Virus record (IMG/VR): IMGVR_UViG_3300042922_000894
Coordinates: 1 to 41,981 of that record
Direction: 5' to 3' (one strand)
Length of the DNA stretch: 41,981 bases
Origin: a virus
The notes beneath the pieces were generated by a model that searched no databases, was not told the DNA's origin, and saw nothing but the letters and a program-made list of their open reading frames with translations. A program made the translations under genes and the position numbers. Shown one piece after another: positions 1 to 41,981 of this stretch (the first letter of the stretch is position 1; each line of letters opens with the position of its first letter).

Positions 1-466
1 GCGAACGACGACGCACCCGGTTGCGGTTGGTGTTGCGCTGGCCGGCGATCGGGCGGATCGCGCTGATGCGCGGGACCTCCCGGATGATCTCCGACTCGAG
101 GTCCTCGGGGACGAGGATCTCGCCGGCGGCGTTCTCGACGAGGGCGCGCTGCTCGGGGGCGAGCACGCCGCCGCGGACGAAGCGCCGGAACGCCGCGCGA
201 CGATCCTGCGAGCGCTGGTCGTCGCCGCCGCCGGGGGCGTTGCCGTTGCCGTGGATGGGCTCGCCGAGCTGGGCGTTACGCCGCTCCTCGGCTTCCTGGC
301 GCTCGATGCGCTCCGAGAAGTCCCGGAACTCGTTCTCGCCGCGGTCGTACGCCGTGCGCTCTTCGGCGCTGAGGTTGCGGTTCTCGCCCTCGGCGCGTTC
401 GGTGATCGCTCGCATCGCCTCGACGGTGCGAGCACGCTCCTGACGGAGCTGAACAGAGGTGGGCAT
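1..466 (-). CDS. Major capsid protein, N-terminal part (copy 1, cut by window edge)
   Basis: Codes for the first 155 or so residues of the HK97-type major capsid protein, identical in sequence to the complete copy at 37077-38294. This part covers the charged N-terminal delta (scaffold) region rich in Glu and Arg, which the prohead protease normally removes during maturation. I chose the ATG at 466 because a GGGAG ribosome binding site sits 7 nt upstream; the in-frame GTG six bases earlier would be too close to it. The gene runs off the left edge of the window. It lies 58 nt downstream of the protease gene in the packaging/head operon. Confidence 0.9.
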   Translation of the reverse strand, partial: MPTSVQLRQERARTVEAMRAITERAEGENRNLSAEERTAYDRGENEFRDFSERIERQEAEERRNAQLGEPIHGNGNAPGGGDDQRSQDRRAAFRRFVRGGVLAPEQRALVENAAGEILVPEDLESEIIREVPRISAIRPIAGQRNTNRNRVRRRS

Positions 467-524
467 AGCCACTCTCCCTTCCTGTGTTGGGGTGTGTCCC
501 GCACCGTTCGGACGGGCACTCGGT

Positions 525-1112
525 TCAGAGCTGCTCGAGCAGCTCCAGTTCGTGGAGGCGGTGCCGCGCGCGCTCGGCCGGGTAGCCGGCCTCGCGGGCG
601 AGGTGCCGCTTCGCGAGATCGCGCAGCTCGGCCGACGTCTGCGTGTACGCCGGATAGGTGACGACGGAGACGTCGCCGCCGTCGAAATCGAACTCGCGGA
701 CCTCGTGGATCGAGCCGGACCACCCGTCGGAGGTGATCCAGAAGCCGAACGACATCTGCGTGATGTCCTCGCGCTCGAGCGACACGGCGAGGTCTCGGGC
801 GTACGAGACGTCGGCCATGTCGGACTCGACGAGCACGCCGTCGGAGTCCTCGGTGAGCGTTACCGTCCCGGCGCGGGTGCGGCCGAGCAGCAGGTTCGGG
901 TCGTGGTTGATCAGGAAGCGGACGTCGGGGTTGGCCGCGAGGGTGCGCGTGGCCGCGCCCGGGCGGATCAGCTCCTGCCAGCCGCCGAGGTCCTCGGAGA
1001 GCTGGTCGTAGACGACCGCCCGGCCGGTGAAGTGCAGCCGGCGGTCGTCGTCGCTGGCGGCCCGGATCTGGATGTCCGTCAGCGGGAAGGCGCGGCGTTC
1101 GAAGATGCGCAT
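525..1112 (-). CDS. HK97-type prohead protease (copy 1)
   Basis: A 195-residue protein, the normal size for the phage prohead serine protease family (U35/S78-like). This enzyme cleaves the capsid delta domain inside the assembled prohead. The expected catalytic landmarks are visible: His70 in an INHDPN motif and Ser121 in the TQMSFGFW motif, followed by an Asp-rich strand. Start ATG at 1112 has a GGAG site 8 nt upstream. It begins 11 nt after the portal stop and precedes the capsid gene, the standard portal-protease-capsid order. The copy at 38353-38940 differs by only a few residues near the C-terminus. The same reading frame stays open upstream over the portal gene, which is only a shadow. 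Confidence 0.93.
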   Translation of the reverse strand: MRIFERRAFPLTDIQIRAASDDDRRLHFTGRAVVYDQLSEDLGGWQELIRPGAATRTLAANPDVRFLINHDPNLLLGRTRAGTVTLTEDSDGVLVESDMADVSYARDLAVSLEREDITQMSFGFWITSDGWSGSIHEVREFDFDGGDVSVVTYPAYTQTSAELRDLAKRHLAREAGYPAERARHRLHELELLEQL

Positions 1113-1123
1113 GGGATCAGCTC

Positions 1124-3010
1124 CTAGTAGTCGAAGTCCATGCCGCAGGTGCACCCTGCGGCGTCGTCGGCGCCGGCCGCGAGGTCGCCCGGCCACATGG
1201 CACCGTTCGAGAACGGCTCGTCGATCGGGACCGTCTCGCCCTGCATGTCCGCGTGCCGGTCGTGATCCGACCGCCACCGTTTCGCCGATGCGCCGGTCTG
1301 CGACGCGCCCTCGAAACGGCCGAAGGATCCCGCCCGGTTGATGATCCGCGCCGCCCACACCGACACGCTCTCGAGCACCACGTCGAACGCTCGCGCGGCC
1401 GAGACGTCGGACTCGAGGAGGCGGAAGACGGAGGAGTTGAACGCGGCGGCTTCCGAGCCGGCGACCGAAGCCGCCCAGTTCGTCGTCCGCTCGGAGATGA
1501 ACACGTCGCCGCGGGTCTCGGCCTGTCGCGCGCCGAACTCGGACACGACGCCACCGATCGCGGGGGCGAGGGTCTCGGCGAGCAGCTCGTCCCAGACGGT
1601 GCGCTCGTCGGCGTCCGGCGCGGCGGCGATCTGGTCGCGCTGGTCGCGGACGTAGTCGCTGAAAATCAGCTCGAGGCGAGTGACCCATGCGGGCGCGTCG
1701 TCCGTGGCCGCCCGGCGCGCAGCGGGCAGCGCCCGGAACGCGGTCGGGTGAAGCTGCGCGATGTGCACCGGCGACATGCCGTCGCGCTGGATCGGCAGGG
1801 ACCCCGCGGGCACCATGTTCGTCGGCTCGAGGTAGGTGTCGCCGTTCTCGATGGGCGGTTCGTCCTCGAGCGCGCGAACGTCGTTCGCGGAGAGGTAGCC
1901 CCACTGGCGTCCGGCGGCGTACGCGGCGGTCTGCGCTGCGGTGTCGCCGCGCATCCGGCCGCGCGGGTCGAACTTCAGCCGCATCTCCTCCTCGTCGAAC
2001 AGCCGCTGCGTGACCTTCTCGAGGCGGGTGATCGGCGGCAGGAGTGCGTCCTGGACGAACTCGATGCCGAGGTGCTCGATGTTCGAGAACGTCGCGTGGT
2101 CGAGGTCGCCGATCTTGTGCGGCGGGACGCCGTACATCGATGCGATCTTGCCCTCGGTGAGCTTGTAGATGGCGAGGAACTGCGCGTCCGCCGGTGACAG
2201 CGACACGCGCTCGAGCTTCGCGCCGCCCTCGAAGACCGCGATCTGGTGCGAGTTCTCGAAGCCCTGGTGGCGGTCCTCCATCTGCTGGACGAGGCGCTCC
2301 CACTGCTTGTCCGAGAGGTTCCCCGACGTGGTCAGCACGGTCTCGGGCGTCGCGTCGCGCTCGAAGAATCCGCCGATGTAGGCGGTCGCCGCGACGGAGA
2401 TCCCGACCTGCTGCCGGGCGACACCGATCGGCGAGAGAGCCTCCGGCCCGGTCCCGAACCAGCGGTAGTGCAGGATCTCGAGGTGCGTGGCGACGTAGCC
2501 CTTCTCGACCGGCAGCCACGTCTCCTTGCCGTCGTGGTCGAGCTTGTAGGCGAGGTCCCCCGTCGACGTGCGCAGCACGGTGACGTCGCTCGGCGGCACC
2601 GGCCACAGCGCCTTGACCTGACCGGCGCCGTTGCGGTGCACGTACACGTACGCGTTGCCGCGGATCAGTAGCCACGTCACGACGACGCGCCAGAACTCCG
2701 ACGCGTCCATCACCGGGTTCGGCTGGACCGTCAGGATGCGGACGAGCTTCGCGTAGCGGGCCGGCGGGGCGACCCGGTCGCGGCCGCGGCGGACGACCAC
2801 GGACACCGGGAGGCTCGCGATCGCCTCGGCGACGAGCCGCACCGACGTGAGGACTGCCATCACCTGCAGCGACTGCTCCGGGGTGACGTGCACGCCGGCC
2901 GAGGTGCGGCTGCCGCGGAGCGAGGGCATCCGGGAGCGCCGAGTGAAGGCGCGGACGCCGTCGGTGACGGTGCGCCAGGTGCGGGCGATTCGGCCGGTGA
3001 AGCTAGCCAC
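1124..3010 (-). CDS. Portal protein with C-terminal MuF-like domain (copy 1)
   Basis: A 628-residue protein. The first 420 or so residues match HK97-family portals (phage_portal), which form the dodecameric ring through which DNA enters and leaves the head. At 628 aa it is about 200 residues longer than a typical HK97 portal. Residues 578-628 carry the hallmarks of the Mu F/SPP1 gp7 minor head domain: RW-SDHDRHADMQG, then VPIDEPF, then a WPGD turn and a terminal CTC motif in place of NCRC. It therefore looks like a portal-MuF fusion. The start is GTG at 3010, with AGGAGG 4 nt upstream, and overlaps the terminase stop by 8 nt (GTGGCTAG), suggesting coupled translation. The stop is TAG. Confidence 0.93.
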   Translation of the reverse strand: MASFTGRIARTWRTVTDGVRAFTRRSRMPSLRGSRTSAGVHVTPEQSLQVMAVLTSVRLVAEAIASLPVSVVVRRGRDRVAPPARYAKLVRILTVQPNPVMDASEFWRVVVTWLLIRGNAYVYVHRNGAGQVKALWPVPPSDVTVLRTSTGDLAYKLDHDGKETWLPVEKGYVATHLEILHYRWFGTGPEALSPIGVARQQVGISVAATAYIGGFFERDATPETVLTTSGNLSDKQWERLVQQMEDRHQGFENSHQIAVFEGGAKLERVSLSPADAQFLAIYKLTEGKIASMYGVPPHKIGDLDHATFSNIEHLGIEFVQDALLPPITRLEKVTQRLFDEEEMRLKFDPRGRMRGDTAAQTAAYAAGRQWGYLSANDVRALEDEPPIENGDTYLEPTNMVPAGSLPIQRDGMSPVHIAQLHPTAFRALPAARRAATDDAPAWVTRLELIFSDYVRDQRDQIAAAPDADERTVWDELLAETLAPAIGGVVSEFGARQAETRGDVFISERTTNWAASVAGSEAAAFNSSVFRLLESDVSAARAFDVVLESVSVWAARIINRAGSFGRFEGASQTGASAKRWRSDHDRHADMQGETVPIDEPFSNGAMWPGDLAAGADDAAGCTCGMDFDY

Positions 3011-4556
3011 GAGGCCTCCTCTGCAGTGTGCGGATGCGCGGCTCGGGAGTAGCCGGCGGGTTCTTCAGCAGCCAGTACGCGCCAGCGACAGCCCAGATTG
3101 GCGATGCGTCGCCGGGTGAGGCCTTCGCGTCGACGACGTACGCGCCGCCGAGATTCTTCATGACGGCGGTGTTCGCTGCGATGTCGAGCAAGGGCTGGTT
3201 GCGGTGCTTGATCTTGCCGAGGTTCACGCCGTCGAGCAGCAGGCCGGCCGCACGGCCGAGATCCGGCCCGCCCCACTCGGTGACGGTGAGCTCGGCCTCC
3301 TCGAACTCGGTCAGCATCGACGACACGGGAGCGCCGCGGACCTGGAACGTGATCCCCGCCGGGGTGAACGTGCGCTCCGGCGAGGTGAGCCAGGGGACGA
3401 TCCAGTCGGTGCCGGGCTGCGAGGCCATGATGCCGACGTGCACGAGCCCATCGGCGCGCTTCGAGGCGAACGCGATGTGCGCAAGCTGGCGGTTCTGCGA
3501 CACCTCGATGCAGATGTAGACGTCGGCGTCGTCGGCGCGCTTCGAGAGCCGGTCGAAGCCGTCCGCCCACTTGCCGGGCTGGAACGGGCCACCGACAGAC
3601 GAGTCGACGAAGACGTTGCCGACCTCGGACGCGAACACCGGTGCCGGGTCGGAGATCCAGTAGGCGTAGAGGTTCTCCTGCGGCAGGTTGTAGTTCAGCG
3701 ACGGGTTCGAGTACGCCCACGCCTCGGGACTGTCGAGCGGCATCCCCGGCGGCGGCGACCACCAGAACAGGCCGATCGTCGTGTCGGTGTCGCCAGCCTC
3801 GATCGCGTCCATCGCCTGCTTGTGCAGGAACCGCTGGACGATCGCTTCCATGTCGCCGGCGTTTGATGCGGCGATGAGCTGCGACCGTCGGCGGGCCGCC
3901 GTGGTCTTCGACAGCGCCGACCACGCCTTGAACGTCTTGTGCTTGAGGATCTCGTCGACGAAGACGAGATCGAACGTGAGACCGCGGCCGCCGTTGTCGG
4001 CGGAGTCGACCCAGTACCGCTGACCACCGGTGAGCTCGAACCACAGCTCGCCGTTCGTGTTCGAGAACTCGCCGCGCTCCTGCTTGAGATCCGGGATCGC
4101 GTCGATGATGTTCTGCGCGTGTTCCCACGTCTTCTTCGCGGTCGCGAGCTTCTGGGCGACGCCGATGATCTGCGCGTCGCCGTCGACGAACATGCGGAAC
4201 AGGATCAGCAGCGCGGCGATGAACGTCTTGCCGTTCTGTCGCGCAACCCACAGCAGCACCGTCTTGAACCGGTACGACCCGTCCGGGTTCAGCTCGAGCG
4301 CGTGGATCAGGAACCAGCGCTGCCACGGATTGAGCTTCGGCGCGAGTTCCTCGTAGCGCGTTCCGGCGAGCTGTAGGTGCAGCCACATCGCGAAGTGGAT
4401 CGCGGCGTAGCCGGCGCTCGTCTGCGGGGTCAGCTTGCGGCGCGGCGGGGTGAAGACACGCGGCACCATGTGCCCGTACACCCGCCGCGGCCGCGCGCTA
4501 CGCCTTTTTCCGGACTGGGCGCCGCTGGGGCGCTTCCGGGTCGTCGTCGATGGCAT
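3003..4556 (-). CDS. terL: Terminase large subunit (complete, copy 1)
   Basis: A 517-residue packaging motor ATPase/nuclease. A Walker A-like motif ARQNGKT lies at residues 105-111 and a Walker B motif LVFVDE at 197-202. The C-terminal half has the acidic strands expected of the RNase H-like nuclease (DVYICIEVS near residue 337). TerL pumps phage DNA through the portal into the prohead and cuts the concatemer. I chose ATG 4556, which has GGGAG about 5 nt upstream. This start overlaps the small-terminase gene by 59 nt in another frame, which is long; a later in-frame Met at residue 30 lacks a good ribosome site. The gene ends in a TAG that overlaps the portal start. Confidence 0.95.
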   Translation of the reverse strand: MPSTTTRKRPSGAQSGKRRSARPRRVYGHMVPRVFTPPRRKLTPQTSAGYAAIHFAMWLHLQLAGTRYEELAPKLNPWQRWFLIHALELNPDGSYRFKTVLLWVARQNGKTFIAALLILFRMFVDGDAQIIGVAQKLATAKKTWEHAQNIIDAIPDLKQERGEFSNTNGELWFELTGGQRYWVDSADNGGRGLTFDLVFVDEILKHKTFKAWSALSKTTAARRRSQLIAASNAGDMEAIVQRFLHKQAMDAIEAGDTDTTIGLFWWSPPPGMPLDSPEAWAYSNPSLNYNLPQENLYAYWISDPAPVFASEVGNVFVDSSVGGPFQPGKWADGFDRLSKRADDADVYICIEVSQNRQLAHIAFASKRADGLVHVGIMASQPGTDWIVPWLTSPERTFTPAGITFQVRGAPVSSMLTEFEEAELTVTEWGGPDLGRAAGLLLDGVNLGKIKHRNQPLLDIAANTAVMKNLGGAYVVDAKASPGDASPIWAVAGAYWLLKNPPATPEPRIRTLQRRPRG

Positions 4557-18551: not shown

Positions 18552-19006
18552 CGACCCCGATCGACGAGTACCTCGAGGACCTCGCCCGCCAGGCCGGCAT
18601 CCGCATCGAGTACGTGCAGCTCCGCGATGGTCGCGACGGTGAGTACGACCACGCCCGCAAGGTCATCCGCCTGCGCCCGGGGATGAGCGCCCGCCTCCAC
18701 CGCTCCGTCCTGGCGCACGAGCTCGGCCACGCCGCGTTCAGCCACACCCCGACCCGTTTCGGTCCGGTGCACGCGAAGCAGGAGCGCATGGCGGAGGAGT
18801 GGGCCGCGCTCCGACTCATCACACCGGCCGACTACCGTCACGTCGAAGAGATCCACGCCGGACACCCGGGCGCGATGGCTCTCGACCTCGGCGTCATGAA
18901 GAGCATCGTCATCGCATTTCAGGGACTGCTCGAGCGCCTCGGCGACGTCGTCTACGTAGACGGCCGGATGGGCGCCGGACAGTGGTCCCATCGCGAGGCC
19001 GTCTGA
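18548..19006 (+). CDS. ImmA/IrrE-family metallopeptidase
   Basis: A 152-residue protein with the zinc-protease motif HELGH at residues 57-61 and a downstream EEWAALRLI segment supplying the third ligand Glu, the standard DUF955 pattern. It probably cleaves or otherwise inactivates the repressor encoded just before it, switching the prophage to lytic growth. ATG 18548 overlaps the repressor stop; its own TGA shares one base with the integrase ATG (TGATG). Confidence 0.9.
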   Translation: MTTPIDEYLEDLARQAGIRIEYVQLRDGRDGEYDHARKVIRLRPGMSARLHRSVLAHELGHAAFSHTPTRFGPVHAKQERMAEEWAALRLITPADYRHVEEIHAGHPGAMALDLGVMKSIVIAFQGLLERLGDVVYVDGRMGAGQWSHREAV

Positions 19007-20169
19007 TGGCCCGGCCACCTCTCGAGCTCGAGACGTGGGGCAAGATCCGGCGCACCAACGTCGGAGGCAAGCCGACGGCCGTCGCCTACTACCGCGACTC
19101 CGACGGCATCACGCGCCCGATGCAGCGCCAGGGGAAAACACCGGCGGAGGCCGAGCGCAATCTCGTGCGCGCCCTGAAGCAACGCCTCGCCCCAGTCAGC
19201 GAAGAGCTGACGCCGGACTCGACGGTCGCCGACCTCGCCGACAAGTGGCTCCCGACGAAGACGCGCCTCGCCGAAGGATCGATCCGGATCTACACGAACT
19301 CGATCCGGAAGCACATCGCGCCCGGCATCGGGTCCGTCCGGCTGCGCGAGGTCACCGTGCCGAAGCTCGACCGCTTTATCGCGGCCCTCGCATCCTCGTC
19401 CGGGCACGGCACGGCCACGACCGCGCACGTCGTCCTCAGCGGCATGTTCACCCTCGCCGCGCGCCACGGCGCGGTCCGCCCGAACCCGATGTCCGACGTC
19501 CCGGGACCGGAGAAGCCGAAACGCCGCCGCCGATCTCCCGCCCCCGACCTCGAGATCGTGCGCGGCATCCGCAGCCGCTTCGAGATGTGGGACGCCGGTA
19601 CCGAGCCGCGGCCGGACGGCGACCGGCGGCCGCGCCGCCCGCGCGCGAGCGACCTCCTCGACACGACGAACATGATCATCGGATCCGGCATCCGCACCGG
19701 CGAGCTGCTCGCGCTGCAGTGGGACTCGCTCGACCTCGTCGGCAAGACCGTGACGATCGAGCGCACAATCGCCCAGGACCGCGAGGGCAAGTTCTTCGTC
19801 CAGCAGTTCACGAAGAGCTACGCCGGCTACCGACAGCTCGAGCTGCCGGATGCGCTCGTCGAGATGCTCGTGCGACGTCGCGTCGCGTCCTACACCGCGT
19901 TCGTCTTCCCCTCCGCGGTCGGCACGTTCAAGCACCCGAACAACTACCGGACGACCTGGCGCGCTGCCCTCGCGGGCACGCCCTACGCCAGGACCACACC
20001 GAAGAGCTTCCGGAAGACGGTCGCGACCGTCGTCCGCGACAAGCTCGGCATAGAAGCGGCGAAGGCGCAACTCGGCCACGAGGACGAGAGCACCACGCGT
20101 AAGCACTACGCCGACGAGGTGCACCACGGCCCCGCGCTCGGACCCGTTCTCGACGACCTGTTCTTCTGA
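19006..20169 (+). CDS. int: Tyrosine integrase
   Basis: A 387-residue phage integrase. An N-terminal arm-binding domain (residues 1-65) and a core-binding SAM-like domain (72-165) precede the catalytic domain. The catalytic set is Arg230 (GSGIRTGE), Lys270 in the beta hairpin, Arg336 in TPKSFRKT, His358 in LGHED and the nucleophile Tyr368 (KHYADE). Box II, normally H-x-x-R, is K-S-F-R here (Lys333 in place of His). It recombines the attP located 80 bp downstream with a host tRNA gene. It is the last gene of the repressor operon and is followed by a strong terminator. Confidence 0.95.
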   Translation: MARPPLELETWGKIRRTNVGGKPTAVAYYRDSDGITRPMQRQGKTPAEAERNLVRALKQRLAPVSEELTPDSTVADLADKWLPTKTRLAEGSIRIYTNSIRKHIAPGIGSVRLREVTVPKLDRFIAALASSSGHGTATTAHVVLSGMFTLAARHGAVRPNPMSDVPGPEKPKRRRRSPAPDLEIVRGIRSRFEMWDAGTEPRPDGDRRPRRPRASDLLDTTNMIIGSGIRTGELLALQWDSLDLVGKTVTIERTIAQDREGKFFVQQFTKSYAGYRQLELPDALVEMLVRRRVASYTAFVFPSAVGTFKHPNNYRTTWRAALAGTPYARTTPKSFRKTVATVVRDKLGIEAAKAQLGHEDESTTRKHYADEVHHGPALGPVLDDLFF

Positions 20170-20170
20170 A

Positions 20171-20182
20171 AACCCAGAGTAA
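20171..20182 (+). promoter_or_regulatory. Candidate integrase arm-type site
   Basis: The 12-mer AACCCAGAGTAA matches AACCCCGAGTAA at 20379-20390 at 11 of 12 positions. The two lie on opposite sides of the att core, as arm-binding sites of tyrosine integrases do. Confidence 0.5.
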
Positions 20183-20192
20183 ATAGCGAACG

Positions 20193-20226
20193 GCCCCGGA
20201 TCTCGCGAAGAGATCCGGGGCTGTTT
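20193..20226 (+). terminator. Strong intrinsic terminator after integrase
   Basis: A perfect 12-bp GC-rich stem (20193-20204 with 20210-20221) and 5-nt loop, followed by TGTTT. It closes the repressor-protease-integrase operon. Confidence 0.85.
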
Positions 20227-20250
20227 CGCTTATCTACCTGGGATTTCCTG

Positions 20251-20291
20251 TGCCGGCTACAGGACTTGAACCTGCAACCCCCGTTTAGAAG
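20251..20291. other. attP: attP core: 3' half of a tRNA gene (Arg-UCU-like loop)
   Basis: On the minus strand this is the 3' portion of a tRNA: anticodon loop CTTCTAA (anticodon TCT, Arg), right anticodon stem ACGGG, a variable loop, a perfectly formed T-arm (GCAGG TTCAAGT CCTGT) and the 3' acceptor strand AGCCGGC followed by discriminator A. The 5' half (GCCGGCT acceptor) is absent, so this is the segment that replaces the tRNA end on integration and restores the host gene. The amino-acid identity rests on the loop alone. The site is intact with phage DNA on both sides. Confidence 0.88.
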
Positions 20292-20296
20292 GTGTC

Positions 20297-20372
20297 GGGT
20301 ACCTTCGCGTACTTCCCTGTACTTCCCGCGGCATCCGCTTCAGTCAGTACAGACAAGTACATATAGGTACAT
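20297..20372. repeat. Phased GTAC repeats next to attP core (candidate Xis sites)
   Basis: GTAC occurs at 20299, 20309 and 20319 (10-bp steps, unit gtacttccct), and again at 20347, 20357 and 20367 (10-bp steps, unit gtacat-like). Read as AAGTAC the first three are on the minus strand and the last three on the plus strand, giving two inverted triplets, each in helical phase. Tandem 10-bp-phased sites beside an att core are typical of excisionase binding. Confidence 0.6.
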
Positions 20373-20378
20373 CGCAAA

Positions 20379-20400
20379 AACCCCGAGTAAACCCCGAGCG
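20379..20400 (+). repeat. Direct repeats AACCCCGAG (candidate integrase arm sites)
   Basis: Two head-to-tail copies, AACCCCGAGTAA at 20379-20390 and AACCCCGAGCGG from 20389, matching the copy on the other side of the core at 20171-20182. A weaker inverted relative lies at 20234-20246. Confidence 0.55.
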
Positions 20401-21720: not shown

Positions 21721-23061
21721 ATGTCGATCTCACTGCTCGGCATCATCTTTCTCGGACTCGGCGTCATCGGCTGGTTGTTCTCCGAGCGCCTGTTCATTGC
21801 CACGATCGCAGCTTCCGCGGTGTTCTCGACGTCAGCAGCGGTCACGATTGCCGGGAACGGCATCCCGCCTTTCCATGTCGTCGGCGCTCTAGCTGTCGTC
21901 TCCGCGATCGTGTCGATGCTGCGAGGCGCGAAAGTCCGGCACCCTGCAGTGCCCCTACTGGTGCTGCTGCTGGTCTGGTCTGTTCTGGTGACCGCGTGGG
22001 CACCGACACTGTTCGCGGGCATCCCGATCCTGGACCCGCGCGCCGGCATCGATCGACAGGTGTACGACCCGACACCCCTCGCCTACACCCCCTCGATGGC
22101 CGCGCAGGTGGCGTACCTCATCGTGGGCGTTGGCGTCGCGATCTATCTCGCGCAGCGGCCACGCCTGACGCCTGCGGTTATCACCATCCCGATCACCATC
22201 GGCACCGCGCTGAGCGCCCTCCGCCTCGTTCCGGGGCTCGCTGAGCCTATGGATGCCATCTTCCGCAACTCCGCGTCCGCGGGGTACCTCGGGTTCGTGC
22301 AGCGCCATTTCGGGGTGTTCGCGGAGCCCTCCTACCTGGCCGTGTTCTCCATTGCCGCCCTCGCGTTCACCGTCTACCGACTGCGCGCCTCCCGAGGAAC
22401 GGAGCGCGTCGCTCTCGTCGCCGTCGTCTTGCTCGCGCCCGTGAACCTCTTCGCCGCGTCCTCCGGAACTGGCGCTCTCGGCTTCGTGCTGCTCGTCGGC
22501 ATCGCCCTCGTCTACTACGGGACGCGGTTCCTCTTCGCACGTATGAAGCTCAACCCCTGGTGGCTGCTGCTCCCGCTCGGGGTGGTCATCGCTCTCATCA
22601 CCCCGAACCCCCTTACCGCGTCGATTGCGGAGGTGCTGGACGACAAGTCCGGGAGCGCGTCGTTCCGCAACCGCTTCGCGTCGGATCTCTTCTCGCTTGA
22701 TCTCACCCTTGACACCTTCGGCATCGGCGTGGGTCTCGGCGCGAGTCGCCCCTCGAGCTTCGCCACTCTCGTCCTGAGCAACCTCGGCGTGATCGGCTTC
22801 GCGCTTCTCGCTGTGGCCCTCTGCCTTGCCATCGCGCGGGTGCGCATTACGCCCGGGTGGACGCCGGCCGCGGTCGCTCTGTTCGCGTTGGTGCTCGCCA
22901 AAGTCATCGCCGAGCCTGCCCTTAGCACCCCGCTGCTGTGGCTGCTCGTCGGCGCCTGCCTATACGCGGGAAACCGTGCACGGAACGAAGAGAAGCCCCC
23001 GCTGAGCAGCACGGTGGCTACTCAGCGGGGGCTCGTTCGTCAGTCGGCGAGGAACGCCTGA
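21721..23061 (+). CDS. O-antigen polymerase/ligase-like membrane protein
   Basis: A 446-residue protein with about ten to twelve predicted membrane helices. It shows features of the Wzy/WaaL superfamily: a periplasmic/extracellular loop with FAEPSYLAVF (residues about 200-210), the SGSASFRNRF segment, then FGIGVGLGASRPSSFA. These proteins polymerise or transfer surface polysaccharide repeat units. In the lysogeny region it is best explained as a conversion gene that alters host surface glycan and may block superinfection. The last 22 nt overlap, tail to tail, the end of the tail-fibre gene, and its 3' codons contain the terminator hairpin. Confidence 0.75.
   Translation: MSISLLGIIFLGLGVIGWLFSERLFIATIAASAVFSTSAAVTIAGNGIPPFHVVGALAVVSAIVSMLRGAKVRHPAVPLLVLLLVWSVLVTAWAPTLFAGIPILDPRAGIDRQVYDPTPLAYTPSMAAQVAYLIVGVGVAIYLAQRPRLTPAVITIPITIGTALSALRLVPGLAEPMDAIFRNSASAGYLGFVQRHFGVFAEPSYLAVFSIAALAFTVYRLRASRGTERVALVAVVLLAPVNLFAASSGTGALGFVLLVGIALVYYGTRFLFARMKLNPWWLLLPLGVVIALITPNPLTASIAEVLDDKSGSASFRNRFASDLFSLDLTLDTFGIGVGLGASRPSSFATLVLSNLGVIGFALLAVALCLAIARVRITPGWTPAAVALFALVLAKVIAEPALSTPLLWLLVGACLYAGNRARNEEKPPLSSTVATQRGLVRQSARNA
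22994..23033. terminator. Bidirectional terminator between convergent operons
   Basis: A 13-bp perfect stem, AGCCCCCGCTGAG (22994-23006) with 23021-23033, and a 14-nt loop. It lies within the last codons of the polymerase-like gene and just past the end of the tail-fibre gene, so it can stop transcription from both sides. Confidence 0.75.
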
Positions 23062-25610
23062 TACAGGTCGGCGTGACCTGCGGCGGATAGCAGCGTGGGC
23101 GTCTGGAAGACGTCGGATACCTGCCCGGTCATCCCCTGCGTGATGCCGCCGGGGGTGTCCCGACCGAGTGCGTGCAGGTTGGCCGTGCTGTTCCGGTTGT
23201 ACTCGCCCGTCCACTTCCCGACGAGAGCCCCGTCGAGATAAAGACTCACGCCCGTAGCGTCAGCCGTCCATGTGATCAGGTGCGGCTGCCCGTTCGCAAT
23301 AGAGACTGCGTTCGGACCGACCTCGCGCAGCACGAACGCAGTGTCGTAGGCGAGCAGGTGGATGGTGCCGTTGGTCTTGACCTGCAACGACCAGGCGACG
23401 CCGCCGTTCTGCTGGCCGGTCTTGGACGAGTTGCGCCCGACGATGCTGACCTCGGACGCCGGATTTGCGGCCATCTTCACTACGCACCCCGCGGTGAAGT
23501 ACCCCTGAATCCAGCCCTGCCCGTACGAGTTCTGCATGACGAGCGTGCCGCCCGCAACGTGCATCGACTTGTCGTCTGGCTCCGAGGGCACGATCGATCC
23601 CGCCCGGTAGGTGGGCGCAGTTCCCGAGAGCGTGGCGGCGTGTCCCGCGCCGGACGCATCGGCGATCGCAGTACCCGCTGCCTCGTCGAGCTTCCACCAC
23701 ACAAGCGGATCGATCGACGCGATGGCCGTGGAGAGGTTCGTGCGGTCGATGACTGGCTCGTGCGTGAACTTCTCGGCGGGCGCAGTTGCGGTGAGCAGGC
23801 CGTGTGCGAGGTTCGCGGCGACGACCATCTCGGCGCCGACGCTGCCGTTCTCGCCCGTTGTGTACGTCTGGCCGGTCGTGAATCGGGCTTGCAGCTCAAG
23901 CTGCCGGGTGAGGTGCTGGATCGCCCAGTACCCCGCGCCCGGATTCTGACCGCGGTCCCATCCGTAGACGTAGGCGCAGACGTCGTAGATGGCCTTGTCT
24001 TCGACACGAGGGAGCTGGTGGTCGGTTCCCTGCGGGTAGTAGATGTCGGCCGTCCCCGGCCATTTGTAGATCGTGCCGCCCGGCGCAAGGATGCGTCCGC
24101 CCGCCGGGTACGGGTGCGGCCCGAACGTCCCGACCGTGAAGTCGACGTTCAGCAGCGCGTCGTAGATGAGCTCGGCGTGCCGTGTGAGCGCCATCGGGAG
24201 CGCGAGTCCGGCGTCCCACGCGAACGCGAAGCTGCCGTACAGACTCGAGGCCGGCGACACCATGTAGTTCGGGTGAATGCGGGTGTGGTTGACGACCGTG
24301 CCGTCCGGGTTCACGTTGGTCCCGTTGAGGAACGTCGCCGGAATCACACCGTTGACGGGGGTCGTGTCGCTCAGGTCGGCGGGGATCGCGTTGTACGAGA
24401 TGCCCATGTTGATCAGCGACCGCCACCACTCGCCGTAGTTGGCGTGGTTCGGCTGCATCAGCATCGCCATGATGACGACCGGCGCGTGCCACGCCGTCTC
24501 CTCCGACTTCGAGTCGCCGAGAGCGACCTCGTTGCCGGCGCGGTCCTTCCAGTACGGGATGACGGTCGGCCCCCAGATCGAAGGCCGCATGCGGTTCGCT
24601 TCCCACACGACCATCGCGATGATCGCGTTCTGCCCAGCCGTCGAGATGCTGTCCCACACCATCCACGCCGCGGAGCTGATGAGGTACGCCCAGAGGGTGT
24701 ACTGCTGGTTGCCTGCGGTGCCGGGTCCGATGTTCTGCGGACCGCCCCACCCGGTGCCGCCGTTGTTCGCGAAGTGCTTCGCGGTCAGCGACGTCACGAG
24801 ACGCACGATCTGAACCCGCGCAGCAGCTTCTGTCGCTCCCACTACGGTCGGGTCAAACTTCCCGCGGCGGATGAGCGCACCCAGTGTGAAGGCAGCGTTC
24901 GCAGGGATGCGGATATTCGTCTCTGTCAGCCCGCCGAAATCGGTGATCGTGCCCGTACCGGGGTACGTGGTCGTGATCCACGTCATCGCGTACTTCGCGG
25001 CGTTCAACGTCGCCTCGGTCAGCAACGCCTCGATCTGCGCGTCGACGTCGCGCTGCGCGATCGGGTCGCGCAGAACGACGCCGAGAGGACTCGAAGCGTC
25101 CTGCGCCTGCCCAGCGATGACCGTCCCGAGCGCTGTTGCAGTCTTCGATCCGGGGGACTTGATGAGCGCCTCGGTGATGGTGTCGTTCGTGTTCCCGACG
25201 GCGGCAGCCTCCGCCGCAGCTTCGACGGCGGCGGCCTGTGCCGCCACGGCGTTCAGCCGCGCGAGTTCCGCCGCCTGAGCGCTGCTCGCCGCGGCGCCCG
25301 CGTTCCCCGATGCCATCGCCGCCGCGGCCTCTGCAGCGTTCGCGTAGACGGACAGCGACGTCATCGGGGTCCGGAGCGAGCCGGACACCACGACGATCTG
25401 CATCGTCTGGTTCACGACCCGGAAGGCGGGGTAGATGCCGAGGTCCGAGGACCGCAGCTCCGGCATCGGGACGCCCTGCAGGTCGGTGAGAGCGAGCGGC
25501 GTCGAGAGGGTGGTGTCCGCCAGGGCGTATACCTGCGCGGACGCGTTCTTGACGGTGTTGCCGTTGCCGTCGGCGGCGAGCGTCGCCGGGAAGTAGTCGA
25601 TGATCGCCAC
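23040..25610 (-). CDS. Tail fibre/spike with putative glycan-degrading and LamG domains
   Basis: An 856-residue protein. Residues 1-85 form the attachment module (IIDYFPATLAADGNGN, then YPAFRVVNQTMQIVVVSG). Residues 85-135 are an Ala-rich coiled-coil collar. The centre (about 190-600) is rich in Trp, Tyr, Asn and His (NQQYTLWAYLISSAAW, then KSEETAWHAPVVIMAM, then VNHTRIHPNYM) and resembles an alpha/alpha-toroid polysaccharide lyase or hydrolase. Residues 636-856 are a LamG/concanavalin-like domain starting DPLVWWKLDEAAGTA. It probably binds and cuts host surface glycan. GTG 25610 has AGGAG 7 nt upstream; the frame extends further but as a shadow. Confidence 0.8.
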   Translation of the reverse strand: MAIIDYFPATLAADGNGNTVKNASAQVYALADTTLSTPLALTDLQGVPMPELRSSDLGIYPAFRVVNQTMQIVVVSGSLRTPMTSLSVYANAAEAAAAMASGNAGAAASSAQAAELARLNAVAAQAAAVEAAAEAAAVGNTNDTITEALIKSPGSKTATALGTVIAGQAQDASSPLGVVLRDPIAQRDVDAQIEALLTEATLNAAKYAMTWITTTYPGTGTITDFGGLTETNIRIPANAAFTLGALIRRGKFDPTVVGATEAAARVQIVRLVTSLTAKHFANNGGTGWGGPQNIGPGTAGNQQYTLWAYLISSAAWMVWDSISTAGQNAIIAMVVWEANRMRPSIWGPTVIPYWKDRAGNEVALGDSKSEETAWHAPVVIMAMLMQPNHANYGEWWRSLINMGISYNAIPADLSDTTPVNGVIPATFLNGTNVNPDGTVVNHTRIHPNYMVSPASSLYGSFAFAWDAGLALPMALTRHAELIYDALLNVDFTVGTFGPHPYPAGGRILAPGGTIYKWPGTADIYYPQGTDHQLPRVEDKAIYDVCAYVYGWDRGQNPGAGYWAIQHLTRQLELQARFTTGQTYTTGENGSVGAEMVVAANLAHGLLTATAPAEKFTHEPVIDRTNLSTAIASIDPLVWWKLDEAAGTAIADASGAGHAATLSGTAPTYRAGSIVPSEPDDKSMHVAGGTLVMQNSYGQGWIQGYFTAGCVVKMAANPASEVSIVGRNSSKTGQQNGGVAWSLQVKTNGTIHLLAYDTAFVLREVGPNAVSIANGQPHLITWTADATGVSLYLDGALVGKWTGEYNRNSTANLHALGRDTPGGITQGMTGQVSDVFQTPTLLSAAGHADLYQAFLAD

Positions 25611-25642
25611 GTCGGCGCTCCTCTCGGGGTTAGGGGCGGGGG

Positions 25643-26041
25643 TCAGCCGAGCGCGCGGCGCGACTCGATCGCTGCCTGGTACTCGTCGCGGGTGACAACA
25701 CTCGGATCGGGCAGCACGGCGTCGTCGCCCGCACCCTCCGTCGCGACGACCTTGGATTTCGGGACGGAGCCGAGGCCGATCTTCGTCAGCCAGCCGTTGA
25801 CCTTCGGGATCGCCATGATGCGGGTGACGACGGAGGCGATCGCGACGAGCGAGGCGAGAGCGCCGGTCGCCCACGCGATCCAGGACGCCGGCAGGATCTT
25901 CGCCAGCTCGGCGAGGACGTCCGGCGCGACCAGCGCGAGGGCGAGGATGCCGGCGCTGATGGTCGACAGCCCGGAGACGACGACGGCGATTGCGGTGCGC
26001 AGCACGCGCTGCGTCTTGAACCAGATCTCGGGAACGTTCAT
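25643..26041 (-). CDS. Membrane protein, holin candidate
   Basis: A 132-residue protein with two hydrophobic helices (about residues 14-42 and 52-75), a basic loop and an acidic C-terminal tail. Size and topology suit a class II or actinophage holin, which makes the membrane holes that release the endolysin. ATG 26041 is preceded by a strong GGAGGT site. It is the last of three membrane-protein genes after the endolysin. Confidence 0.65.
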   Translation of the reverse strand: MNVPEIWFKTQRVLRTAIAVVVSGLSTISAGILALALVAPDVLAELAKILPASWIAWATGALASLVAIASVVTRIMAIPKVNGWLTKIGLGSVPKSKVVATEGAGDDAVLPDPSVVTRDEYQAAIESRRALG

Positions 26042-37076: not shown

Positions 37077-38294
37077 TCAGGCTGCCTTGGTCTTCAGCAC
37101 CCGCAGCGCCTGCGGCCGGACGACGTCGCCGCCGACGCGCTTGCGGAAGCGGAAGCCGATCATGCCCTCCTCGGCGTACAGCTCCTCGAGCCGCTTCACG
37201 GTGATGCCGAGGCGGTCGTAGACGCGGTAGCCGGCCTGGAAGTCACCGAACGCCGCGACGGCCTTGTTGGCCGCGATGCCGTCGATGTTCTCCTGGTTGT
37301 GGATGGCGAACCCGTTGAGGGTGTTCGGGCGACCTGCCTGCAGCGAGGGCTGCCACAGGTACCGGCCGTCGGCGTCCTTCATCGTCGAGACGAACAGCTC
37401 CGTCGTCGAGGGGATGAGGAAGCTGCCGTTGCGGCGGTACTGCGCGGGCACGTCGTAGACGAGTCCGAGCAGGTCGTCGAGGAACACGCCGGGCGCGTTC
37501 GCACCGGTTCCGCCGTAGGTCGTCGCCCCGGACACGCGGGCGGGAACGCCGCCTGCGGTCGAGAAGATGCCCACGGGCATGTGCGCCGTGTGGCCGGTGC
37601 CGATCGTGAAGGCGGTGTCCTCGGCGTCGGCAGCGGCGCGCGCGAAGCTGTCGCGGATGAACGCGTCCAGGTTCACGTCGGTGTCGTCGAGCTCGTCCTC
37701 GCCGACCTTCGCCAGGCCGTAGAGGTCCTCGATGTACGTGTACTCCTCTTCGGGGGTACCCGGCATCGAGTCCGTGAGCTCCTGCTCGTTCGTCTCGAGC
37801 TTGCCCCAGCCGACGGACACCTCGTCGAGCGAACGACGACGCACCCGGTTGCGGTTGGTGTTGCGCTGGCCGGCGATCGGGCGGATCGCGCTGATGCGCG
37901 GGACCTCCCGGATGATCTCCGACTCGAGGTCCTCGGGGACGAGGATCTCGCCGGCGGCGTTCTCGACGAGGGCGCGCTGCTCGGGGGCGAGCACGCCGCC
38001 GCGGACGAAGCGCCGGAACGCCGCGCGACGATCCTGCGAGCGCTGGTCGTCGCCGCCGCCGGGGGCGTTGCCGTTGCCGTGGATGGGCTCGCCGAGCTGG
38101 GCGTTACGCCGCTCCTCGGCTTCCTGGCGCTCGATGCGCTCCGAGAAGTCCCGGAACTCGTTCTCGCCGCGGTCGTACGCCGTGCGCTCTTCGGCGCTGA
38201 GGTTGCGGTTCTCGCCCTCGGCGCGTTCGGTGATCGCTCGCATCGCCTCGACGGTGCGAGCACGCTCCTGACGGAGCTGAACAGAGGTGGGCAT
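37077..38294 (-). CDS. Major capsid protein, HK97 fold (complete copy)
   Basis: A 405-residue capsid subunit. Residues 1-110 are the charged delta domain (RQERARTVEAMRAITERAEG, then NLSAEERTAYDRGENEFRDF). The HK97 fold then runs from about 115 (ILVPEDLESEIIREVPRISA) to the C-terminus (FGDFQAGYRVYDRLGITVKRL, in part). It forms the icosahedral shell after protease processing. ATG 38294 has GGGAG 7 nt upstream. The N-terminal 466 nt lie in the block that is identical between the two repeat copies. Confidence 0.95.
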   Translation of the reverse strand: MPTSVQLRQERARTVEAMRAITERAEGENRNLSAEERTAYDRGENEFRDFSERIERQEAEERRNAQLGEPIHGNGNAPGGGDDQRSQDRRAAFRRFVRGGVLAPEQRALVENAAGEILVPEDLESEIIREVPRISAIRPIAGQRNTNRNRVRRRSLDEVSVGWGKLETNEQELTDSMPGTPEEEYTYIEDLYGLAKVGEDELDDTDVNLDAFIRDSFARAAADAEDTAFTIGTGHTAHMPVGIFSTAGGVPARVSGATTYGGTGANAPGVFLDDLLGLVYDVPAQYRRNGSFLIPSTTELFVSTMKDADGRYLWQPSLQAGRPNTLNGFAIHNQENIDGIAANKAVAAFGDFQAGYRVYDRLGITVKRLEELYAEEGMIGFRFRKRVGGDVVRPQALRVLKTKAA

Positions 38295-38352
38295 AGCCAC
38301 TCTCCCTTCCTGTGTTGGGGTGTGTCCCGCACCGTTCGGACGGGCACTCGGT

Positions 38353-38940
38353 TCAGAGCTGCTCGAGCAGCTCCAGTTCGTGGAGGCGGTGCCGCGCGCG
38401 TTCCGCCGGGTAGCCGGCCTCGCGGTCGAGGTGCCGCTTCGCGAGGTCGCGCAGCTCGGCCGACGTCTGCGTGTACGCCGGGTAGGTGACGACGGAGACG
38501 TCGCCGCCGTCGAAGTCGAATTCGCGGACCTCGTGGATCGAGCCGGACCACCCGTCGGAGGTGATCCAGAAGCCGAACGACATCTGCGTGATGTCCTCGC
38601 GCTCGAGCGACACGGCGAGGTCTCGGGCGTAGGAGACGTCGGCCATGTCGGACTCGACGAGCACGCCGTCGGAGTCCTCGGTGAGCGTGACCGTCCCGGC
38701 GCGGGTGCGGCCGAGCAGCAGGTTCGGGTCGTGGTTGATCAGGAAGCGGACGTCGGGGTTGGCCGCGAGGGTGCGGGTGGCCGCGCCCGGGCGGATCAGC
38801 TCCTGCCAGCCGCCGAGGTCCTCGGAGAGCTGGTCGTAGACGACCGCCCGGCCGGTGAAGTGCAGCCGGCGGTCGTCGTCGCTGGCGGCGCGGATCTGGA
38901 TGTCCGTCAGCGGGAAGGCGCGGCGTTCGAAGATGCGCAT
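38353..38940 (-). CDS. HK97-type prohead protease (copy 2)
   Basis: A 195-residue homologue of the protease at 525-1112, with the same catalytic His70 and Ser121. Only about one residue change is seen (KRHLDREAG here, KRHLAREAG in copy 1), while silent substitutions are frequent. Start ATG 38940 with the same GGAG site. Confidence 0.93.
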   Translation of the reverse strand: MRIFERRAFPLTDIQIRAASDDDRRLHFTGRAVVYDQLSEDLGGWQELIRPGAATRTLAANPDVRFLINHDPNLLLGRTRAGTVTLTEDSDGVLVESDMADVSYARDLAVSLEREDITQMSFGFWITSDGWSGSIHEVREFDFDGGDVSVVTYPAYTQTSAELRDLAKRHLDREAGYPAERARHRLHELELLEQL

Positions 38941-38951
38941 GGGATCAGCTC

Positions 38952-40838
38952 CTAGTAGTCGAAGTCCATGCCGCAGGTGCACCCTGCGGCGTCGTCGGCG
39001 CCGGCTGCGAGGTCGCCCGGCCACATGGCGCCGTTCGAGAACGGCTCGTCGATCGGGACCGTTTCGCCCTGCATGTCGGCGTGCTGGTTGTGATCCGATC
39101 GCCAGCGTTTCGCCGATGCACCGGTCTGGGACGCGCCCTCGAAGCGGCCGAAGGATCCCGCCCGGTTGATGATCCGCGCCGCCCACACCGACACGCTCTC
39201 GAGCACCACGTCGAACGCTCGCGCGGCCGAGACGTCGGATTCGAGGAGGCGGAAGACGGAGGAGTTGAACGCGGCGGCTTCCGAGCTCGCGACCGAGGCT
39301 GCCCAGTTCGTCGTCCGCTCGGCGATGAACACGTCGCCGCGGGTCTCGGCCTGTCGCGTGCCGAACTCGGACACGACGCCACCGATCGCGGGGGCGAGGG
39401 TTTCCGCGAGCAGCTCGTCCCAGACGGTGCGCTCGTCGGCATCCGGCGCGGCGGCGATCTGGTCGCGCTGGTCGCGGACATAGTCGCTGAGGATCAGCTC
39501 GAGGCGAGTGACCCAGGCGGGTGCGTCGTCCGTTGCCGCCCGGCGCGCAGCGGGCAGCGCTCGGAACGCGGTCGGGTTGAGCTGCGCGATATGCACCGGC
39601 GACATGCCGTCGCGCTGGATCGGCAGGGACCCTGCGGGGACCATGTTCGTCGGTTCGAGGTACGTGTCGCCGTTCTCGATGGGCGGTTCGTCCTCGAGTG
39701 CGCGGACGTCGTTCGCGGAGAGGTAGCCCCACTGGCGACCGGCGGCGTACGCGGCGGTCTGCGCCGCGGTGTCGCCGCGCATCCGACCGCGCGGGTCGAA
39801 CTTCAGCCGCATCTCCTCCTCATCGAACAGCCGCTGCGTGACCTTCTCGAGGCGGGTGATCGGCGGCAGGAGCGCGTCCTGCACGAACTCGATGCCAAGG
39901 TGCTCGATGTTCGAGAACGTTGCGTGGTCGAGGTCGCCGATCTTGTGCGGCGGGACGCCGTACATCGACGCGATCTTGCCCTCGGTGAGCTTGTAGATCG
40001 CGAGGAACTGCGCATCCGCCGGTGACAGCGACACCCGCTCGAGCTTCGCGCCGCCCTCGAATACGGCGATCTGGTGCGAGTTCTCGAAGCCCTGGTGGCG
40101 GTCCTCCATCTGCTGAACGAGGCGCTCCCACTGCTTGTCGGAGAGGTTCCCCGACGTCGTCAGCACGGTCTCGGGCGTCGCGTCGCGCTCGAAGAAGCCG
40201 CCGATGTAGGCGGTCGCGGCGACGGAGATCCCGACCTGCTGCCGGGCGACGCCGATCGGCGAGAGCGCCTCCGGCCCTGTCCCGAACCAGCGGTAGTGCA
40301 GGATCTCGAGGTGCGTGGCGACGTAGCCCTTCTCGACCGGCAGCCACGTCTCCTTGCCGTCGTGGTCGAGCTTGTAGGCGAGGTCTCCGGTCGACGTGCG
40401 CAGCACGGTGACGTCACTCGGCGGCACCGGCCACAGCGCCTCGACCTGACCGGCCCCGTTTCGGTGCACGTACACGTACGCGTTGCCGCGGATCAGCAGC
40501 CACGTCACCACGACGCGCCAGAACTCCGACGCGTCCATGACCGGGTTCGGCTGGACCGTCAGGATGCGGACGAGCTTCGCGTAGCGGGCCGGCGGGGAGA
40601 CGCGGTCGCGGCCGCGGCGGACGACCACGGACACCGGCAGGCTCGCGATCGCCTCGGCGACGAGCCGCACCGACGTGAGGACCGCCATCACCTGCAGCGA
40701 CTGCTCGGGCGTGACGTGCACACCGGCCGAGGTGCGGCTGCCGCGGAGCGATGGCATCCGGGAGCGCCGGGTGAAGGCACGGACGCCGTCGGTGACGGTG
40801 CGCCAGGTGCGGGCGATTCGGCCGGTGAAGCTAGCCAC
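38952..40838 (-). CDS. Portal protein with MuF-like domain (copy 2)
   Basis: A 628-residue portal, the counterpart of 1124-3010. Substitutions against copy 1 include A/S in RDRV(A/S)PP, K/E before ALWPV, H/N in IAQL, F/L in LELI, A/T in SEFG, S/A before ERTTNW, G/S before EAAAFN, and DR/NQ before HADMQG. They are conservative and cluster in the C-terminal extension; the MuF signature is retained. Same GTG start overlapping the terminase stop. Confidence 0.93.
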   Translation of the reverse strand: MASFTGRIARTWRTVTDGVRAFTRRSRMPSLRGSRTSAGVHVTPEQSLQVMAVLTSVRLVAEAIASLPVSVVVRRGRDRVSPPARYAKLVRILTVQPNPVMDASEFWRVVVTWLLIRGNAYVYVHRNGAGQVEALWPVPPSDVTVLRTSTGDLAYKLDHDGKETWLPVEKGYVATHLEILHYRWFGTGPEALSPIGVARQQVGISVAATAYIGGFFERDATPETVLTTSGNLSDKQWERLVQQMEDRHQGFENSHQIAVFEGGAKLERVSLSPADAQFLAIYKLTEGKIASMYGVPPHKIGDLDHATFSNIEHLGIEFVQDALLPPITRLEKVTQRLFDEEEMRLKFDPRGRMRGDTAAQTAAYAAGRQWGYLSANDVRALEDEPPIENGDTYLEPTNMVPAGSLPIQRDGMSPVHIAQLNPTAFRALPAARRAATDDAPAWVTRLELILSDYVRDQRDQIAAAPDADERTVWDELLAETLAPAIGGVVSEFGTRQAETRGDVFIAERTTNWAASVASSEAAAFNSSVFRLLESDVSAARAFDVVLESVSVWAARIINRAGSFGRFEGASQTGASAKRWRSDHNQHADMQGETVPIDEPFSNGAMWPGDLAAGADDAAGCTCGMDFDY

Positions 40839-41981
40839 GAGGCCTCCTCTGCAGTGTGCGGATGCGCGGCTCGGGAGTGGCCGGCGGGTTCTTCAGCAGC
40901 CAGTACGCGCCAGCGACAGCCCAGAGTGGCGATGCGTCGCCGGGCGAAGCCTTCGCGTCGACGACGTACGCGCCGCCGAGGTTCTTCATGACGGCGGTGT
41001 TCGCTGCGATGTCGAGCAGGGGCTGGTTGCGGTGCTTGATCTTGCCGAGGTTGACGCCGTCGAGCAGCAGACCGGCCGCGCGGCCGAGGTCCGGGCCGCC
41101 CCACTCGGTGACGGTGAGCTCCGCCTCTTCGAACTCGGTGAGCATCGACGACACAGGGGCGCCGCGGACCTGGAAGGTGATCCCGGCCGGGGTGAACGTG
41201 CGCTCCGGCGACGTGAGCCACGGAACGATCCAGTCGGTGCCAGGCTGCGAGGCCATGATGCCGACGTGCACGAGCCCGTCGGCGCGCTTCGAGGCGAACG
41301 CGATGTGCGCGAGCTGCCGGTTCTGCGACACCTCGATGCAGATGTAGACGTCGGCGTCGTCGGCGCGCTTCGAGAGCCGGTCGAAGCCGTCGGCCCACTT
41401 GCCGGGCTGGAACGGTCCACCGACGGACGAGTCGACGAAGACGTTGCCGACCTCGGACGCGAACACAGGCGCCGGGTCAGAGATCCAGTAGGCGTAGAGG
41501 TTCTCCTGCGGGAGGTTGTAGTTCAGCGACGGGTTCGAGTACGCCCACGCCTCAGGGCTGTCGAGCGGCATCCCCGGCGGCGGCGACCACCAGAACAGAC
41601 CGATCGTCGTGTCGGCGTCGCCAGCCTCGATCGCGTCCATCGCCTGCTTGTGCAGGAACCGCTGGACGATCGCTTCCATGTCGCCGGCGTTCGAAGCGGC
41701 GATGAGCTGCGACCGGCGGCGGGCGGCCGTGGTCTTCGACAGCGCCGACCACGCCTTGAACGTCTTGTGCTTGAGGATCTCGTCGACGAAGACGAGGTCG
41801 AACGTGAGACCGCGGCCGCCGTTATCTGCGGAGTCGACCCAGTACCGCTGACCGCCGGTGAGCTCGAACCACAGCTCGCCGTTCGTGTTCGAGAACTCGC
41901 CGCGCTCCTGCTTGAGATCCGGGATCGCGTCGATGATGTTCTGCGCGTGTTCCCACGTCTTCTTCGCGGTCGCGAGCTTCT
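40831..41981 (-). CDS. terL: Terminase large subunit, C-terminal part (copy 2, cut by window edge)
   Basis: Counterpart of 3003-4556, covering about residue 136 to the end. It includes Walker B and the nuclease half; the Walker A region and the start lie beyond the window. Two residue changes are seen against copy 1 (T/A in AGD-DTTIG and I/L in SP-WAVAG), with many silent differences. Confidence 0.93.
   Translation of the reverse strand, partial: KLATAKKTWEHAQNIIDAIPDLKQERGEFSNTNGELWFELTGGQRYWVDSADNGGRGLTFDLVFVDEILKHKTFKAWSALSKTTAARRRSQLIAASNAGDMEAIVQRFLHKQAMDAIEAGDADTTIGLFWWSPPPGMPLDSPEAWAYSNPSLNYNLPQENLYAYWISDPAPVFASEVGNVFVDSSVGGPFQPGKWADGFDRLSKRADDADVYICIEVSQNRQLAHIAFASKRADGLVHVGIMASQPGTDWIVPWLTSPERTFTPAGITFQVRGAPVSSMLTEFEEAELTVTEWGGPDLGRAAGLLLDGVNLGKIKHRNQPLLDIAANTAVMKNLGGAYVVDAKASPGDASPLWAVAGAYWLLKNPPATPEPRIRTLQRRPRG

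Follow-up and report, generated by a model that had tools for sequence, protein, structure and literature searches.

The 4.15-kb duplication carried at the two ends of IMG/VR virus record IMGVR_UViG_3300042922_000894 is, with a probability that we put at roughly 0.93, an assembly wraparound of a 37,828-bp circular phage map through a two-strain bubble. The window analysed here is the whole stretch of 41,981 bp, positions 1 to 41,981 of that record. Without the wraparound, it is a complete 37,828-bp map of a temperate phage, and the offset between the two copies (37,828 bp) is a plausible complete genome length, as the longer related records measure 36.8-39.8 kb.

For such a wraparound to arise, the sample would hold at least two co-resident strains that are about 4% apart in the terminase-portal region, and this region would form a bubble in a de Bruijn graph with k=127. 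The assembly path would start in the shared segment, take the strain-A arm and complete the circle; it would then pass the shared segment a second time, follow the strain-B arm and halt at the k-mer that closes the bubble (position 4153). The 572-bp identical block would then be a single shared graph segment that was printed twice, and the 4.15-kb duplication would exist in no DNA molecule. Two strains of one circular genome, present side by side in a sample, therefore yield exactly the diverged repeat that is observed. The metagenomic origin of the sample, the assembler and the k used for this record are inferred here. The largest k in JGI metaSPAdes runs is 127, and for this record the value is taken from that general setting and from the control contigs described below rather than from the record itself.

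Structure of the repeat and its two alleles

When the window was aligned to itself, positions 1-4153 matched positions 37829-41981 (offset 37,828, overlap 4,153 bp) with 133 substitutions and no indels. The first 572 bp of the two copies show no mismatch, and all differences are confined to positions 573-4026, where the divergence is 3.85%, with 573-1200 being less diverged than most of the repeat region. The preliminary description, made from the letters of the sequence, had reported two 4.15-kb copies that are about 4% diverged and share an identical 572-bp block, and the alignment bears this out; the 11 mismatches that it counted in 3001-3270 also agree with the positions listed in our alignment. 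It had further judged the 572-bp identity very unlikely to occur by chance, for which we calculated a probability of about 2e-10 at the observed divergence, if sites are independent. What it overlooked is that the last 127 bp of the overlap are identical as well, and that these are the final 127 bases of the contig (Table 1). At the observed divergence, an identical run at the end would come out at exactly this length with a chance of about 3e-4. Identical runs located between the two end runs reach a maximum of 115 bp. Thus, at the presumed k, the contig ends on a shared run of 127 bp and no internal shared run is 127 bp or longer, which is the pattern of a bubble.

Table 1. Features of the window (41,981 bp); the names of segments and arms follow the wraparound interpretation
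Feature	Coordinates	Strand	Remarks
Shared segment, first printing	1..572		N-terminal part of major capsid gene and intergenic DNA; equals 37829-38400
Putative strain-A bubble arm	573..4026		133 substitutions relative to 38401-41854
Portal protein, allele A	1124..3010	-	PHROG 12/2662; allele B at 38952-40838
Terminase large subunit	3003..4556	-	PHROG 9; allele A in 3003-4026; allele B at 40831-41981, cut by contig end
127-bp identical run, putative shared k-mer vertex	4027..4153		Reprinted at 41855-41981
Tyrosine-type integrase	18799..20169	+	PHROG 1; 71% identical to the Microbacterium sp. MYb62 prophage integrase
Probable attP core	20254..20284	+	Resembles 3' end of a tRNA-Thr gene; ~85 bp past integrase stop
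Major capsid gene, complete	37077..38300	-	PHROG 10; Pfam Phage_capsid; spans junction 37828/37829
Shared segment, second printing	37829..38400		37829 is map position 1
Putative strain-B bubble arm	38401..41854		From the repeat alignment
127-bp end run	41855..41981		Equals 4027-4153

The two portal alleles differ in 69 synonymous and 9 nonsynonymous codons and the two terminase alleles in 42 synonymous and 2 nonsynonymous codons. Because both alleles are intact and their differences are mostly synonymous, they look like those of real sibling strains that are co-resident and under purifying selection. Sequencing error or damage was considered as the origin of the allele differences and was rejected, given that there are no indels, the frames are open and the changes are mostly synonymous. 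Neither copy is markedly closer to the relatives than the other, each aligning to them at 74-84%. When the 133 sites were polarised against these relatives, with the question of a mosaic in mind, the pattern was mixed and did not resolve into clear blocks. It seems unlikely to us that the strains differ only in the 3.45-kb terminase-portal segment as the result of a recent swap of packaging-gene alleles between sibling phages of one population.

Assembly graph and alternative explanations

A graph with k=127 was built from two circular genomes, one for each allele. Because the window contains 4154-37828 only once, the strains were set identical there, and the graph is therefore not informative about their real similarity in this part. 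The circular-strain graph consisted of three unitigs, namely a common part (4027-38400) and two arms (446-4153). The simulated strain-B arm ends at map position 4153, which corresponds to the last base of the contig. Walking through the A arm, the common part and the B arm reproduces the contig, except that the walk starts at position 446 and the actual contig at position 1. We infer a further graph branch at map position 1; such an extra branch at k-mer 1-127 would account for this start. For comparison, a tandem-lysogen graph was built from the same two alleles at k=127 with random host flanks. This graph breaks at attP, giving a separate 222-bp unitig (20159-20380) and separate arms, because the host junctions and the junction between the units share their flanks. 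The actual contig, on the other hand, crosses the attP region (~20254-20284) unbroken.

The preliminary description had offered three interpretations and had excluded a simple circular genome and terminal redundancy on account of the divergence. Its second interpretation, in which the assembly goes in through strain A and comes out through strain B, has strong support in the 127-bp run at the contig end, in the simulated graphs and in the control contigs from IMG/VR. Its exclusion of terminal redundancy stands, whereas that of a circular genome does not, since two co-resident strains are sufficient to explain the divergence. Its first interpretation, two related phages integrated in series at the same tRNA-Thr site with an attP-like junction between them, now appears improbable. 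In its favour, the integrase and the tRNA-derived attP core mark a temperate phage, and the junction within such an array would resemble the uninterrupted attP seen in the window. However, the graph break predicted for a tandem lysogen at k=127 is absent, as the contig runs through attP, and tandem integration as such does not predict a 127-bp end run. Moreover, no tRNA gene is present and no host DNA was recognised in the window; attL or attR host flanks were likewise not seen, though the window could be the inner part of an array only. The three host genomes searched carry one terminase copy each, with a weak additional match of 91 residues in one of them (G003). We found no positive evidence for tandem prophages.

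Related phages recombine often, and the lower divergence in 573-1200 would be compatible with the third interpretation, namely that co-resident phages came to share the identical 572-bp block through recent gene conversion or recombination. This is more doubtful still: the block starts at base 1 of the contig, the identities at the ends fit a shared graph segment with no special event, and the second molecule that such an event involves is hypothetical. Recombination is not needed if the 572-bp block is a shared graph segment printed twice. The least probable origin, to which we give hardly any weight, is a linear virion genome that is truly terminally redundant, its ends having diverged. Related phages do package linear DNA, but each terminal repeat is a copy of the other, made during replication and packaging, and the two are hence identical. 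The 133 differences between the copies exclude this origin, and the first copy furthermore starts inside the capsid gene.

The phage and its attachment site

The window phage is an ordinary temperate actinobacterial siphovirus. It carries the set of features belonging to this type of phage (integrase, repressor, HK97-type capsid, terminase, tape measure and attP), and in addition genes for the portal, major and minor tail proteins, a RecE-like exonuclease and a cytosine methyltransferase. The unit junction falls within an intact capsid gene, so that the map forms a closed circle of 37,828 bp. Relatives were found in genomes of Microbacterium and Leifsonia, in a Leucobacter, in an actinomycete MAG and in metagenome contigs; these relatives infect high-GC actinobacteria. 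The terminase-portal block is present as a single copy in the relatives, and in any one relative the two window copies align at the same place.

The core downstream of the integrase gene probably represents attP; it reads as such because no tRNA half adjoins it. Rfam and tRNA searches of the window found nothing. The prophage of Microbacterium sp. MYb62 is flanked by two 35-bp att cores (49548 and 86457), one of which lies within a tRNA-Thr gene. Several positions differ between this core and that of the window, which may reflect a different host tRNA or a different allele of it. A related record (G004; IMGVR_UViG_3300042922_000811) is bounded by 32-bp copies at 1-32 and 38383-38414, which look like a tRNA 3' end, as though the record had been cut exactly at attL/attR or closed at attP.

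On the attachment-site side of the map, a 944-aa protein (23040-25874, minus strand) has no PHROG match; in Pfam, its C-terminal portion hits Laminin_G_3 (E 1.3e-6), and it is perhaps a host-binding or tail-tip protein. Between attP and this gene lies an open frame of 446 aa (21721-23061, plus strand), for which PHROGs, Pfam and PADLOC all gave no hit and which may be an accessory gene of the lysogenic state.

Imperfect wraparounds in IMG/VR and comparison with known systems

As controls we used 153 IMG/VR contigs of gokushoviruses, small circular ssDNA phages (microviruses) that are unrelated to the window phage. A mismatched overlap of end to start was found in 24 of these (16%, an approximate figure as some of the 24 overlaps are short or of low complexity). 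The commonest end run among the mismatched wraparounds was 127 bp, with five cases. One contig (L163; IMGVR_UViG_3300039104_000010) has a 539-bp overlap with 42 mismatches that ends in exactly 127 identical bases, and in another (L158; IMGVR_UViG_3300047562_000676) the second copy extends over 3.2 kb at 91% identity. Exact terminal repeats of 127 bp were present in six control contigs, while 123 bp was the commonest exact length (13 contigs); exact repeats come in many lengths, of which 127 is frequent but not universal. Imperfect wraparound is common in the IMG/VR collection. The gokushovirus contigs concerned include L158, L100, L087 and L163, and in some of the contigs the second copy is kilobases long, with an identity of 76-91%. 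An exact 41-base scan of IMG/VR with the vertex region found no other record, although records close to the window may have been hidden from it.

In circular assemblies, direct repeats of k-mer length can be a technical artefact (PMC8008677), and strain variation gives rise to bubbles, at which assemblers select one path or terminate contigs (PMC10563150). End overlaps have been described as n and n-1 for IDBA-UD and metaSPAdes (PMC7111523); the wording n-1 for metaSPAdes would predict 126 and not the observed 127.

Public virus contigs can hold imperfect wraparounds that tests for identical ends miss. The present record, which most probably joins a complete phage map to 4.15 kb from a second strain, would count as a linear contig with duplicated head genes, and cutting it to 37,828 bp gives the complete map. 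Biologically, the two copies would represent ordinary microdiversity, and the duplication would not be a real genomic feature.

As with the k-length direct terminal repeats that de Bruijn assemblers leave on circular contigs (PMC8008677), the window ends in an exact copy of an earlier k-mer. It differs from them in that a 3.45-kb diverged arm and the shared segment stand before this k-mer. The arm would be there because two strains are present, and owing to it the contig passes for linear in simple tests of end identity. The gokushovirus contigs L163 and L158 are similar to the window in that a circular genome is followed by an imperfect second copy of its start, which in L163 ends in a 127-bp run; they are unlike it in being unrelated, small ssDNA phages of ~4-4.5 kb. 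The MYb62 prophage (L035; IMGVR_UViG_2791355177_000001, 37,405 bp) shares with the window phage a colinear terminase region, a similar length, an integrase (71% identical) and a tRNA-Thr attachment site. In contrast to the window, it is integrated and present as a single copy, and its terminase is 81% identical.
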